Source of the DNA: Gemmatimonadaceae bacterium
GTDB lineage: Bacteria; Gemmatimonadota; Gemmatimonadetes; Gemmatimonadales; Gemmatimonadaceae
Length of the DNA: 64,000 nt
Assembly: GCA_035533015.1 (NCBI GenBank)
Contig: DATLUQ010000019.1
Span: 1-64,000, forward strand
Reading direction: 5' to 3'
This document shows positions 23,185 to 32,997 of this stretch, piece after piece. Position 1 is the first letter of the stretch. Each line of letters begins with the position of its first letter. Both the position numbers and the translations under genes were made by a program. The notes under the pieces were generated by a model that made no database searches, was not told the DNA's origin, and was given only the letters and a program-made list of their open reading frames with translations.

Positions 23185-23213
23185 ATAATAACGCGCCGCG
23201 TTACTAGTGTCTA
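23185..23213 (-). promoter_or_regulatory. higBA promoter with embedded operator palindrome
   Basis: On the minus strand TAGACA (23213-23208) and TATTAT (23190-23185) are spaced 17 bases. The spacer and the -10 edge contain TAACGC-GGC-GCGTTA, an exact inverted repeat (23189-23203), positioned where bound HigA would block RNA polymerase. Strong for both elements by inspection. Confidence 0.65.
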
Positions 23214-27796: not shown

Positions 27797-27878
27797 CGGG
27801 AACGAGAAGTCCGCCGACTCGACAGGCGAGAACGGACCGGCGAGATTGTGCGCAGCACTCTCCACCTTTCCCGCCAAC

Positions 27879-30656
27879 ATGATCTCCGACATCGTTCGCT
27901 CCCGCGCCGCCCTCGTCCTGGGCGCGCTGTGCGTCGCCGTTCCCGCCGCGTCGCAGCAGGTCAAGCCGCCACCCCGGGCGCCGGGTGCGCCGCCGGCAAT
28001 CGCCAAGCCCGTCTTCGACACCACGCAGACGACGATTCCCTTCTTTCCGCTTGGCAGTTCGCCACTCGCGCTCACCGGCGACGCACGCCGTGGGATGTTC
28101 ATCTCCGCCGTGGGCCGCAAGGCGATCGCCATGGGCACCGAGGACGGCACGCTGGAACTCTGGTCGTGGCCCATCAAGTGGCTGCACGACTTCAAGCTCT
28201 CGTTCCGCGTGCCCAAGTACACGGCGCCGATCCCCGGCGCCGAGGTCGCCGAGCGCGTGGAGGAGCGCCCCGAAGGCGTGACGATCACCTACGCGTACGA
28301 GCAGTTCACGGTCAAGGAGCACGTGTTCGTGCCGCTGGACAAGCCGGCGATCGTGATCCTGCTCGAGGTGGACGCGATAAGGCCGCTGGACATCATTGCG
28401 ACGTTCACGCCGGACATCCAGTACGCGTGGCCGGCAGGGCTGGGCGGTCAGTACCTGATCTGGGAACAGAACGCGCGCGCTTTCCTCTTTTCCGAGGGCA
28501 AGCGGCAGATCAACGCGTTCCTGGGGTCGCCCGCGGTGACCATGGCGTCGGACGTGCCGGCGCACATGCTTGCCGCCGCGCCGCCCGAGCTCGTGCTGGG
28601 CGTGGGGAGCGCGGCCGACCGGTACACGGCGCCGAAGCTCGGCGAGCCGCCGGGGCACAACGTCAACCTGCACGAGGCGTACATCCCGATCGTGCTCGCC
28701 GGCGGCGAGATGTCGCACGACTCGGCGCTGACCATGTACCGCGAACTCATCGTGCCCGGAGCGGCCGAGCGTGAGTGGAAGCGGGTCGTGGCGCACGAGG
28801 ACTCGATACGCAACACGATGTTCTCGCTCCACTCGCCCGACGCGATGTTGAACGAAGCCGTGGAGTACGCCAAGGTGAATCTCGACCAGGCGTACGTGTG
28901 CAATCCCGACATGGGGTGCGGGCTCGTGGCCGGGTACGGGTTGAGCGGCGCGGCCAGCGACCGGCCCGGGTTCGGCTGGTTCTTCGGGGGCGATGCGGCG
29001 ATCAACTCGTTCGCCATGGACGGGGCGGGGGAGGCGCTGCTCGTGCGCCAGGGAGCGCTGAAATTCTTCGCCAAATACCAGCGCGCCGACGGGAAGATCA
29101 CGCACGAACTGTCGCAGGGTGCGGGGCATGTGGACTGGTTCGACTATCCGTACCCGTATTACCACGGCGATACGACGCCCTTCTGGGTGCTGGCGTTCGG
29201 CGAATACTGGCGGCAGACCGCCGACACGGCGCTGGTCAAGGAGCTGTGGCCCAACCTCCACAAGGCCTACGAGTGGTCCAGGAACACCGACACCAACGGC
29301 GACGGGCTGATGGAAACGCCCACGGCGGGCGCCGGCGCGCTGGAGGTGGGCGACCTGCAGATCGGGATCCTGTCCGACGTCTACATGAACGGAGTGTGGA
29401 TCGCGTCGCTTGACCGGTTCGCGCAGATGGCGCGGGCGATGGGGCAGGGGGCGCTGGCCGACAGCGCGCTGGCCATCCGCGCCAGGGCGCTGCACACGAT
29501 GGAGTCCAAGTTCTGGCTGCCCAGGCTGGGGCAGTACGGGTTCGCGCTGCTGCAGGACGGGAGCGTGAACGAGAATCTCACCGCGTGGGCGGCCACCGCG
29601 ATGGGATTCAGCGTGTTCGACCAGGCGCACGGCGCCGAAATGGCGGCCAAGCTCGCGTCGAGCGACATCATGACCGACTGGGGCGCTCGGCCGCTCTCGG
29701 CGACGAGCCCGCTGTTCGACCCATTACACTACAATAATGGCGCCGTCTGGCCGTTCGTGACGGGATGGGTGTCGCTGGCCGAGTACAACTATCACAACCC
29801 CGCGGCGGGGTGGTTCGCGCTGGATGCCATTGCGCACACCACCTTCGACCAGTCGCTGGGGCACAACCCCGAGGTGATCTCGGGGCGGCTGTACAAGCCG
29901 CTCGACACGGCGGTACCGCAGCAATTCTTCGCGACCTCGATGGTGCTCACGCCGCTCATTCGCGGGCTGCTGGGCATCACGGTGGATGCGCCGGCACATC
30001 GCGTGACGCTCGCGCCGCACCTTCCGCCGGGGTGGGACTCGGTGGGCGTGGACAACGTACCGGTGGGCGCCGACAGACTCTCACTCATGATTCGCCGTTC
30101 GGCGGGCGAGATTTCCGTGGCCGCTCGTCGCTCGGGTGACGATCACACGCCGCTACAGGTGGTCTTCTCACCGGCGCTGCCGCTGGGCGCGCACGTGTCC
30201 GGTTCCGGTGTGGCGGCCGAGGTCACGCCGGGCGACGTGCACGCCACGGTGAGCGCCATGGTCGCGGCGTCGGCCACGCTGCGCGTGGCGTACAGTGGGG
30301 GTTGGAGCATTGTGCCGCCGGAGATGCCGGCGGTGATCGGCGAGCGGTCGCACGCGCCGCGGGTGCTGAGCGAGCGGTTGGTGCCGCGTGTAGCGGGATC
30401 GCCGCCGGCGTCGGAGCAGTACGAAGTCGCGTTGGAGGGACTGGCCGGGCAGACCTATACGTTTCGCATTGTCGCGCCCAGCCCTGGCGCGGCGCGCAAT
30501 CTGTCGGTCGCCGTCACTGCGGGCGCGGCGGCCAGGCTCGGTACGTGGGCCGGCGCTGACGGGCGAACGCTGCTGGTCACGTTCCCGACGGATGGCGCGA
30601 ATGCCGACGGCTACACGGCCGCCACGGTGACGATGCGCGGTCAGGGACGCCTGTAG
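27879..30656 (+). CDS. Secreted (alpha/alpha)6-barrel glycoside hydrolase
   Basis: 925 residues with a signal peptide ending PAASQQ. An N-terminal beta domain (about 40-290) precedes an (alpha/alpha)6 barrel, shown by YGLSGAASDRPGFGWFFGGD, KITHELSQGAGHVDW, TDTNGDGLMETP, GILSDVYMNGVWIASL and HYNNGAVWPFVTGWVSLAEY, motifs shared by amylo-1,6-glucosidase/GH15/GH63-like enzymes. Acidic residues in D-G-K-I-T-H-E and the later E of SLAEY are candidate catalysts. A C-terminal beta-sandwich ends the protein. It probably hydrolyses alpha-glucans or related oligosaccharides outside the cell. It follows the GT39 gene by 82 bases. Confidence 0.8.
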   Translation: MISDIVRSRAALVLGALCVAVPAASQQVKPPPRAPGAPPAIAKPVFDTTQTTIPFFPLGSSPLALTGDARRGMFISAVGRKAIAMGTEDGTLELWSWPIKWLHDFKLSFRVPKYTAPIPGAEVAERVEERPEGVTITYAYEQFTVKEHVFVPLDKPAIVILLEVDAIRPLDIIATFTPDIQYAWPAGLGGQYLIWEQNARAFLFSEGKRQINAFLGSPAVTMASDVPAHMLAAAPPELVLGVGSAADRYTAPKLGEPPGHNVNLHEAYIPIVLAGGEMSHDSALTMYRELIVPGAAEREWKRVVAHEDSIRNTMFSLHSPDAMLNEAVEYAKVNLDQAYVCNPDMGCGLVAGYGLSGAASDRPGFGWFFGGDAAINSFAMDGAGEALLVRQGALKFFAKYQRADGKITHELSQGAGHVDWFDYPYPYYHGDTTPFWVLAFGEYWRQTADTALVKELWPNLHKAYEWSRNTDTNGDGLMETPTAGAGALEVGDLQIGILSDVYMNGVWIASLDRFAQMARAMGQGALADSALAIRARALHTMESKFWLPRLGQYGFALLQDGSVNENLTAWAATAMGFSVFDQAHGAEMAAKLASSDIMTDWGARPLSATSPLFDPLHYNNGAVWPFVTGWVSLAEYNYHNPAAGWFALDAIAHTTFDQSLGHNPEVISGRLYKPLDTAVPQQFFATSMVLTPLIRGLLGITVDAPAHRVTLAPHLPPGWDSVGVDNVPVGADRLSLMIRRSAGEISVAARRSGDDHTPLQVVFSPALPLGAHVSGSGVAAEVTPGDVHATVSAMVAASATLRVAYSGGWSIVPPEMPAVIGERSHAPRVLSERLVPRVAGSPPASEQYEVALEGLAGQTYTFRIVAPSPGAARNLSVAVTAGAAARLGTWAGADGRTLLVTFPTDGANADGYTAATVTMRGQGRL

Positions 30657-30690: not shown

Positions 30691-30763
30691 CTGGGGCGGG
30701 TGGACTCGAACCACCAACTTCCTGATTAACAGTCAGGCGGTCTGCCAGTTGACCTACGCCCCA
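30691..30763 (-). tRNA. tRNA-Asn (GTT)
   Basis: Read on the minus strand, a 73-nt cloverleaf: 7-bp acceptor stem TGGGGCG/CGCCCCA, D arm GGTC...GACC, anticodon arm CCTGA-CTGTTAA-TCAGG with anticodon GTT, T arm with TTCGAGT, and discriminator G. CCA is not encoded. Confidence 0.97.
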
Positions 30764-30785
30764 TCAATGCTCCACGTGCACCGAC

Positions 30786-30943
30786 GAAAAAGCGCCCGCC
30801 GGGAGATCTGGCGGGCGCTGTGCATGCTCGGAACGTTGCGTGCGCGCTAGCCAGACCTCGGGAACGAGGTCCAATTGGGGCAATTATTGGAATTGCTGAA
30901 GGCGTGCGGCATCGTCGTTCGGATTCGTGAGTGAAAACTGTGG
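30786..30943 (-). ncRNA. Candidate small transcript (sRNA or micro-peptide mRNA)
   Basis: A predicted transcript of about 155 nt runs from a near-consensus promoter (30979-30951) to an intrinsic terminator (30819-30791 plus T-tract). Inside are a possible CAATT-loop-AATTG hairpin and a 7-bp stem with a TTCC tetraloop (GACCTCG/CGAGGTC, 30871-30854). A 21-codon frame, ATG at 30912 and stop at 30847, encodes a polar peptide ending SNSNNCPNWTSFPRSG but has no Shine-Dalgarno sequence. The unit lies between the CocE-type gene and tRNA-Asn. No known RNA family was recognised. Confidence 0.45.
30791..30819 (-). terminator. Intrinsic terminator of the small transcript
   Basis: Perfect 10-bp stem (AGCGCCCGCC/GGCGGGCGCT), 9-base loop, followed on the minus strand by a run of five to six T. 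Could also end transcripts reading through from the CocE-type gene at 31001. Confidence 0.85.
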
Positions 30944-30950
30944 GGACGGG

Positions 30951-30979
30951 AGGATACGCCGGAACTGGGAACCTGTCAA
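30951..30979 (-). promoter_or_regulatory. Near-consensus sigma-70 promoter of the small transcript
   Basis: TTGACA (30979-30974), 17-base spacer, TATCCT (30956-30951) on the minus strand, beginning 22 bases downstream of the CocE-type stop. It is the best -35/-10 pair noticed in the window. Transcription would start near 30943. Confidence 0.65.
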
Positions 30980-31000: not shown

Positions 31001-32923
31001 CTACCGCCCACCCGGCAGCACCTCCACTTCGAGCCCGCTGGCGTGTCCCGGCTCGTGGAAGATCCGCTCCGTGGCCTTCACGAAGTCGGTCGCCTTGGCG
31101 TCGTAGATGTTGGGCACGTAATGCTGCGGGTTCCGGTCGAACGCCGGGAACCACGAGCTCTGCACCTGGATCATGATGCGGTGTCCCGTCTTGAACGTGT
31201 GCAGGACGTCCTGCAGCCGGAATTGCACCTGGGTCACGCGGCCTGGCACGAACGGCGCCGGCCGGTCGAACCCGTCGCGATAGCGGCCGCGCATGATCTC
31301 GCCCCGCACGAGCTGCTGATAACCGGCGTAGTGCACGGTGGTGTCGGGCCGGTACGGACTGTCGGCCTCGCCCATCGGATACACGTCGATCAGCTTCACG
31401 ACATAGTCGGCGTCGGTGCCGCTGGTGCTCACGAACAGCCGCGCCGTCATCTCGCCCCCCAGAGTCACGTCCTGCGGGAGGCTGTCGGTCTCGTACGTGA
31501 CGACGTCGCGGCGGTCGTCGAAGCACCGCTGATCGTCGCTCATGTACTGGTACATCGTCAGACCCTGGATGGTGGGAATGCGGCACCGACTCGGCACGGG
31601 CTGGGCGGGGTCGCTCACGTATTCATCGAACGCACTCCCCCCGGGCGGCGCGGTGAACGACAGCCGGCCGCCGGGCTCGAAATAGAGCTCGCGGTGGATC
31701 GCCGACTTGACCGGCCACGAATCGAACGAGCGCCAGACCTTGTCGCCCGTGTCGAAGATGAGCGCGTTCGGCAGCCCCACGGGGCCCTTGCCGTCATCCT
31801 TCAGGAAGTGATGGAAGAACTTGGCCTCGACGTCGCGTTGGAACTTCGTCTCCAGCGAGTCGCCGAAGTAGATGTCGCCGTGCACGGTGTGCACGATCCC
31901 CGTCCGCGACCATCCGCCGTGGCGGAACGGTCCCTCGACGATGGCGTTGTAGTTGGTCGGGTGGTGCGCCTGGATGGTCTTGTAGACGGTGAGCGGTCCG
32001 TACAGATCCTCGGCGTCGAACCAGCCGCCCACGGTGAGCATCGCGGGCATGTGCCCGTTGAGATACGGAGCCACGGCGCGCGCCTTCCAGAACGCGTCGT
32101 AGTCGGGGTGCTGGATGATCTCCTGCCAGAAGAAGTTGTTCTTGTAGTAGCGGTTCGTCGTCGTCGAGAGCGGGCCGAGCCCGAGTTGGAAGTCGTAATC
32201 GTCGGGCAGGCCGTCCTTCACCATGCTCGGCTGCCACCAGGCATCGGGGGTCGGCGCCGGATGCTGGATGCCGAACAGCGGATACGTATAGAAGTAGGCC
32301 TGCGTGAGCGCGCCGTTGTGGTGGAAGTCTTCGAAGTAGAAGTTGGTGACCGGTGCCTGCGGCGACGCGGCGACGAGCGCCGGATGCCCCGACAGCGCCC
32401 CCATGGTCGTGTAGAAGCCGGGATACGAGATGCCCCACTGGCCCACGCGCCCATTGTTGTCGGGGACGTTCTTGAGCAGCCAGTCGATGGTGTCGTAGGT
32501 ATCGGACGCTTCGTCGGTCTTCGTATGGTCCCGGGCCTTGATGGAATCGGGAATGAACGGGCGCACGTTGACGAACGTGCCCTCGGACATGTATCGGCCC
32601 CGGACGTCCTGATACACGAAGATGTACTTGTCGTGCATCATGAACGGGTCGGGGCCGAGGTGCGCCGGATACTGGTCGGGACCATACGGCGCCACCGAAT
32701 AGCAGGTCCGCTGCATCACCATCGGGTAGGGGTGCGCCGGCGACGCATCTTTGGGGACATACACGATGGTGAACAGCTGGACGCCGTCGCGCATCGCGAT
32801 GCGATACTCGTGCTTGGTGTACTCGGCGCGGATGAACGCCGAATCGGACTGCTGGGCGGAGGCCGTGGCGGCGCACACGAGGGCCAGGCATGCGGCGTGG
32901 GTGAGGGAGCGGAGTCTCGTCAT
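31001..32923 (-). CDS. Secreted CocE/NonD family hydrolase (S15-like)
   Basis: 640 residues with a signal peptide (LALVCAATASAQQ). The alpha/beta-hydrolase core has the nucleophile in GQWGISYPGFY (Ser about residue 166), the HxGG-type His in VEGPFRHGGWSR, and the acid near GGWFDAED. A C-terminal jelly-roll domain of the X-Pro dipeptidyl-peptidase type follows (FRLQDVLHTFKTGHRIMIQV). It is an acyl-transfer/hydrolase enzyme acting on esters or X-Pro peptides outside the cytoplasm; family members include cocaine esterase and glutaryl-7-ACA acylase. The ATG at 32923 is chosen for its signal peptide. It stands alone on the minus strand, behind the DUF5117 protease. Confidence 0.9.
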   Translation of the reverse strand: MTRLRSLTHAACLALVCAATASAQQSDSAFIRAEYTKHEYRIAMRDGVQLFTIVYVPKDASPAHPYPMVMQRTCYSVAPYGPDQYPAHLGPDPFMMHDKYIFVYQDVRGRYMSEGTFVNVRPFIPDSIKARDHTKTDEASDTYDTIDWLLKNVPDNNGRVGQWGISYPGFYTTMGALSGHPALVAASPQAPVTNFYFEDFHHNGALTQAYFYTYPLFGIQHPAPTPDAWWQPSMVKDGLPDDYDFQLGLGPLSTTTNRYYKNNFFWQEIIQHPDYDAFWKARAVAPYLNGHMPAMLTVGGWFDAEDLYGPLTVYKTIQAHHPTNYNAIVEGPFRHGGWSRTGIVHTVHGDIYFGDSLETKFQRDVEAKFFHHFLKDDGKGPVGLPNALIFDTGDKVWRSFDSWPVKSAIHRELYFEPGGRLSFTAPPGGSAFDEYVSDPAQPVPSRCRIPTIQGLTMYQYMSDDQRCFDDRRDVVTYETDSLPQDVTLGGEMTARLFVSTSGTDADYVVKLIDVYPMGEADSPYRPDTTVHYAGYQQLVRGEIMRGRYRDGFDRPAPFVPGRVTQVQFRLQDVLHTFKTGHRIMIQVQSSWFPAFDRNPQHYVPNIYDAKATDFVKATERIFHEPGHASGLEVEVLPGGR

Positions 32924-32997
32924 GGGGCTAACATGCACGTGGAGGTGCGGTCGACGCCAGACTGCGGCACGGCGTACCGGACGGGTATCCCTAATGC

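Follow-up and report, generated by a model that had tools for sequence, protein, structure and literature searches.

The window analysed here is a stretch of 64,000 nucleotides from a genome of the Gemmatimonadaceae, and the locus of interest occupies a short interval of its minus strand, in which a promoter, a small open reading frame (ORF) and an intrinsic terminator are positioned between a CocE/X-Pro-peptidase-type gene and a gene for tRNA-Asn (Table 1). An original prediction regarding this locus had listed a TTGACA-N17-TATCCT promoter, a terminator followed by a T-tract, and a frame of 21 codons without a Shine-Dalgarno sequence, and all three elements are indeed present; no Shine-Dalgarno sequence is visible within the approximately 32-nt untranslated stretch that precedes the window's ORF, a stretch that is itself a feature of the window's genus. 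The 159-nt leader transcript folds much better than its shuffles (z = -4.4), and the terminator hairpin was absent from a simple terminator scan because its loop of 9 nt exceeds the limit of 8 used in that scan. The further claim that the promoter is the strongest in the 64 kb was correct with respect to its score (10 of 12), which is the top value in the window, but that score is shared with a promoter-like site at 23213 (-), with the sequence TAGACA-N17-TATTAT. One promoter of that score was found versus 1.3 expected from shuffles of 12 kb, which by itself corresponds to chance level, and the promoter and terminator were therefore accepted as real because of their conservation, rather than because of the promoter score.

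Table 1. Positions of the leader elements, the tRNA gene and the flanking genes within the window
Feature	Position	Strand	Remarks
-35 box TTGACA	30974..30979	(-)	same box in L002 and L004
-10 box TATCCT	30951..30956	(-)	spacer of 17 nt to the -35 box
Predicted transcription start	near 30944	(-)	
Leader peptide ORF MPHAFSNSNNCPNWTSFPRSG	30847..30912	(-)	21 codons and a TAG stop codon
Four Asn codons of the leader ORF	30894-30892, 30888-30886, 30885-30883, 30876-30874	(-)	all AAT
Segment 1 GGACCUCG	30865..30872	(-)	partner of segment 2 in a candidate 1:2 hairpin; weakly supported in relatives
Segment 2 GAGGUCUGGC	30850..30859	(-)	putative antiterminator 5' strand; 3' limit is exactly the stop codon
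GCGC	30844..30847	(-)	possible extension of the antiterminator helix
Segment 3 GCCAGAUCUC	30803..30812	(-)	putative 3' strand of the antiterminator; shares positions with the 5' arm and loop of the terminator
Terminator 5' arm GCGCCCGCC	30810..30818	(-)	
Segment 4 (terminator 3' arm) GGCGGGCGC	30792..30800	(-)	
Terminator T-tract TTTTT	30787..30791	(-)	
Spacer of 23 nt, T-tract to tRNA	30764..30786	(-)	shorter than the length needed for a sigma-70 promoter
Second, divergent tRNA-Asn(GUU)	30691..30763	(-)	putative regulated gene; U1-A72, G73
Convergent gene with glycoside-hydrolase-like domains	27846-30656	(+)	beyond tRNA-Asn
CocE/X-Pro-peptidase-type gene	31001-32938	(-)	upstream; ends 21 nt before the leader promoter

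The description of the unit as 'self-contained' did not survive an examination of its downstream flank, where the tRNA-Asn gene begins on the same strand immediately past the spacer and can be reached by read-through only. That gene is one of two with the anticodon GUU among the 48 tRNA matches in the host genome. The canonical tRNA-Asn (TCCCCAGTAGCTCAGTTGG...; locus L196, G000:C52:19664-19737) is preceded by a promoter-like stretch without a leader, and the copy in the window (TGGGGCGTAGGTCAACTGG...) resembles it at approximately 51 of 73 positions. The window's gene nevertheless displays the hallmarks of a tRNA-Asn, with a GUU anticodon, a cloverleaf and the discriminator base G73, which is a feature of tRNA-Asn (PMC9976931), and its product may be charged with Asn in the cell. 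The possibility that it represents a mutated tRNA-Gln was rejected, because it resembles the tRNA-Gln genes of the genome no more closely than it does other tRNAs. A search for the pattern of this second type over 84,980 species genomes returned 105 stretches, nearly all of which, among the matches listed, belong to Gemmatimonadota. One match, with no Asn leader, is on a contig labelled Myxococcota (L271, JAPKCE010000173.1), which reflects either genuine transfer or mis-binning. Some second-type copies (L020/L026, L085 and L086; for example in G011, G263 and G213) have the anticodon loop CTGTTAC rather than CTGTTAA, with a C at position 38.

When the 321-nt region was used as a query against 60 relatives, homologous leaders joined to tRNA-Asn were found, with 82% identity over 278 nt in the nearest species. 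Regions upstream of the second tRNA-Asn type were gathered from numerous genomes of the phylum, 153 of them distinct, and a leader was called wherever an ORF contained three or more Asn codons and was followed by a terminator. Such an Asn-rich ORF and terminator are found in 55 of the 153 regions, distributed over family f1, to which the window belongs, another family of the same order (f2) and a third one of the same class (f5); a few of these leaders are weak (L093, L094), and the other 98 copies lack a called leader. Locus L293, labelled Chloroflexi, has a leader typical of f2 and is probably a mis-binned contig. The peptides of the relatives (for example MNDMRRNFSNNSNNRNSNRRAG, MLTFAVLGSNRNRSLNSNSGGRAA, MTRRNRNRNHNIGPHRGSV and MTNLHSNPNSNRNPQGDRGDELV) cannot be aligned between families; their recurring feature is Asn, and their most constant part is the C-terminal end (RSG-stop, RAA-stop or LV-stop), which coincides with the antiterminator strand. 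As judged from this comparison across species, it is the Asn codons of the leader ORF, and not the peptide sequence, that matter. The original prediction had held that a lack of conservation of the stems and the peptide would speak against it; conservation is found in the helices, in the richness in Asn, and in the C-terminus that encodes the antiterminator strand. In most relatives (38 of 53) the -10 box ends only 5-9 nt before the start codon, a distance so short that most of their leader messages are probably leaderless.

The enrichment of Asn was assessed against several controls, in counts that are uncorrected for relatedness and that come from regions spanning three families and many genera. 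ATG-initiated ORFs of 15-32 codons with at least five Asn codons were found in 20 of 135 regions, versus a mean of 0.0 in dinucleotide shuffles and none on the other strand, and no other residue gave a comparable contrast in the same ORF test of these 135 regions. When ORFs were instead chosen blind to Asn, by taking every ATG ORF that stops 15-40 nt ahead of the hairpin, which gave 60 ORFs from 59 regions, Asn was the top residue, at 18.8% versus 2.8% in the window's own genes, and at least three Asn codons were present in 53 of the 60.

The end of the ORF also participates in one of two alternative helices. In the window, pairing of segment 2 with segment 3, extended by GCGC/GCGC, is calculated at -28.2 kcal/mol, and the terminator hairpin at -20.2 kcal/mol. 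Across the 55 leaders, the 3' end of each ORF pairs with its own terminator arm at a mean of -23.3 kcal/mol, versus -18.8 kcal/mol when partners are exchanged between leaders (z = -10.2; a mean that low was reached in 0 of 20,000 permutations), a contrast to which differences between families may contribute. Within 22 leaders of the window's type alone, both helices were found to covary: (i) in the antiterminator, six pairs are changed on both sides, in 17 cells versus 7.6 in shuffles (0 of 500); and (ii) in the terminator, four pairs are changed on both sides, in 12 cells versus 3.3 in shuffles (0 of 500). Most of this signal is lost when the partners are slid by 1-3 columns. Because one strand serves both helices, covariation in the two together is a strong sign of a switch, and the antiterminator and terminator, as predicted folds, are mutually exclusive. 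In all 55 leaders, the stop codon lies 19-37 nt ahead of the hairpin. The candidate 1:2 hairpin, which in attenuators of the trp/his type leaves the terminator free to form when nothing is translated, is strong in the window and elsewhere displays no covariation and a mean folding z of -0.84, so that the fold adopted by the leader without a ribosome is uncertain.

Several observations point to the tRNA as the target of this arrangement. In 27 of the 55 loci the distance from hairpin to tRNA is less than 36 nt (minimum 5 nt), which is too short for a sigma-70 promoter, and in those cases, as in the window, the tRNA would be made by read-through only, because no room for a promoter exists after the hairpin. 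In the other 28 the tRNA lies 37-125 nt past the hairpin, and a second promoter could be located between them. Among these, the RAA-type leaders of family f2 (L048-L060, L119, L128, L188 and L308) have 64-125 nt from terminator to tRNA, which leaves room for a further element or promoter. A corresponding survey of other genes in the genome indicated that only one of the 48 tRNAs, that of the window, has a convincing leader with cognate codons; Gly-, Arg- and Ala-rich ORFs at other tRNA genes were discounted because a comparison with shuffles indicated that they are expected by chance in a G+C-rich genome. Leaders were found at none of 11 canonical tRNA-Asn regions, and no convincing Asn leader was found at asnS, asnB, gatB or aspS.

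The leader is very probably a ribosome-mediated transcription attenuator that controls the tRNA-Asn gene by sensing charged tRNA-Asn. Sequence comparison establishes which parts are present and in what order, that Asn is enriched, that the alternative helices co-evolve and that no space for a promoter is left ahead of the tRNA; from these we infer that the leader is translated, that the ribosome stalls, that the polymerase reads through, and in which direction charging is sensed. RNA polymerase would start near position 30944 and a ribosome would translate the 21-codon leader, its position setting the fold of the RNA. With charged tRNA-Asn plentiful, the ribosome would reach the stop codon and cover segment 2, and the terminator would form; with charged tRNA-Asn scarce, the ribosome would stall at the AAT codons and cover segment 1, whereupon segments 2 and 3 would pair, the terminator would not form, and the polymerase would enter the tRNA-Asn gene. 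The RNA of approximately 155 nt would represent the prematurely terminated leader. Since read-through would follow from low charging, the tRNA gene would be under feedback from its own charged product, a response that would make sense for a limiting tRNA, or for one that itself acts as a scaffold for making Asn.

The suggestion that the locus encodes a small RNA or a micro-peptide was right insofar as the leader is probably transcribed, translated and terminated, and wrong insofar as it is not free-standing and precedes a tRNA-Asn gene. A small regulatory RNA that acts in trans and has a promoter and terminator to itself, next to a tRNA that is a mere neighbour with a promoter of its own, would account for a promoter, a stable fold and a terminator within approximately 155 nt, and a terminated leader would look like a small RNA, for which action in trans is conceivable in principle. 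That explanation is nonetheless highly unlikely, given that in every genome examined the leader is joined to tRNA-Asn, that Asn codons are enriched in one frame with a stop codon at a fixed place, and that a promoter does not fit into the 23 nt ahead of the tRNA. The original prediction had recognised no RNA family, and none was matched by the leader in Rfam: its covariance models matched only the tRNA in the window, with no T-box among the weak matches. 6S RNA was rejected, RF00013 having no match in the genome, as was the alpha-proteobacterial sRNA ar14, with 18.6 bits versus a gathering cut-off of 58.8 and a score driven by the terminator. That the frame instead encodes a functional Asn-rich micropeptide, secreted or cytosolic, would fit its being open and Asn-rich in dozens of species, yet is extremely improbable for peptides that cannot be aligned between families and whose most constant end coincides with an antiterminator strand that covaries as RNA.

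Two further alternatives retain the attenuator and change either its output or its signal. The output could be a protein gene co-transcribed with the tRNA, since a serA-like gene (named from its N-terminal sequence) follows the tRNA by 10-22 nt in three sister species (L002, L003 and L004); it is absent from that position in the window, where the next gene is convergent, and apart from the tRNA no downstream gene is common to the 55 loci. A shared downstream gene was accordingly rejected as the real target, the serA-like gene being found after the tRNA only in those three species of the window's genus, and this alternative is considered very improbable. Similarly, the switch might respond to the queuosine state of tRNA-Asn, or to the speed of AAU decoding, instead of to charging. 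Q34 affects the decoding of NAU codons, and AAT is over-used in the leaders (AAT:AAC of 153:103, versus 105:339 in window genes), but 103 of the 256 leader Asn codons are AAC and the other queuosine-related amino acids are not enriched (His 1.7%, Tyr 1.1%, Asp 1.7%), leaving very little likelihood for such a signal.

As a sensor of charging, the leader shares many features with established systems. Ribosome-mediated attenuators are known from amino-acid operons and from synthetase genes, such as pheST and, in Streptomyces, trpS and leuS (PMC1262725). Like the trp, his, leu, thr, phe and synthetase attenuators, the leader has a short ORF rich in one codon family, a stop codon that borders segment 2, and a mutually exclusive antiterminator and terminator; as in those of the trp/his type, the terminator precedes the putative regulated gene. 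It differs from known ribosome-mediated attenuators in its target (a tRNA gene), its codon (Asn), its phylum (Gemmatimonadota) and its probably mostly leaderless messages. A search of the open-access literature returned no leader-peptide attenuator that controls a tRNA gene, and with that scope priority is uncertain; as far as found, the system is classical by mechanism and new by target. The tRNA-dependent Asn/Gln operon of C. acetobutylicum has a two-codon T-box. That element is named in PMC4206432 and PMC4052509, and T-boxes also control synthetases including asnS (PMC2494555). In those systems, as predicted here, charging of tRNA-Asn controls transcription; T-boxes, however, bind uncharged tRNA directly and do not require translation, whereas the present leader matches no T-box and its ORF is presumably translated.

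Control of this kind would be of interest on several grounds. The charging of a tRNA would switch the gene that encodes it, in a feedback loop without a protein regulator and in an environmentally abundant, little-studied phylum; the analysis also brings to light a second tRNA-Asn that is nearly phylum-specific. The prevailing view of bacterial tRNA genes is that they are constitutive or controlled by growth rate; a natural attenuator, often leaderless and open to direct testing in vitro, would make the homeostatic setting of single tRNA levels in bacteria a directly testable question.

The divergent tRNA may also have a role in asparagine synthesis. It is possible, although a tentative suggestion, that the second tRNA-Asn serves as a dedicated, inducible scaffold for tRNA-dependent Asn synthesis, in which it would be charged with Asp and amidated by GatCAB; if so, a tRNA gene would be regulated throughout the phylum as an amino-acid biosynthesis gene is, by classical attenuation. 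Synthesis of this type in organisms that have AsnRS and GatCAB is described for Bdellovibrio, Deinococcus and Thermus in part of PMC4206432, and the window's genus resembles them in having AsnRS, GatB and a U1-A72 tRNA-Asn, with neither AsnA nor AsnB found above the curated cut-off; the second, putatively attenuated tRNA-Asn gene is a feature of the window that the same part of that source does not mention for those systems. AsnRS is split into two pieces at contig ends in the host assembly and is whole in sister species, and GatB is present in the genus except in the 80%-complete G002, where it was not found. By counts taken by hand and uncorrected for relatedness or assembly gaps, AsnB is absent in 7 of 11 leader-bearing genomes versus 6 of 49 others, and by genus in 4 of 8 versus 3 of 39 (p ~0.01). 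GatCAB was rejected as proof of tRNA-dependent Asn synthesis, because the host genome lacks GlnRS and would require GatCAB for Gln-tRNA regardless. Also against the scaffold reading, the single AspRS aligns a Leu with the His of the Pseudomonas Asp/Asn enzyme, at a position that we take to matter for relaxed specificity. In family f3, AsnRS is partial (G041) or below cut-off (G043) and GatB is present, which reflects either gaps in these assemblies or a dependence on the indirect route to Asn-tRNA.
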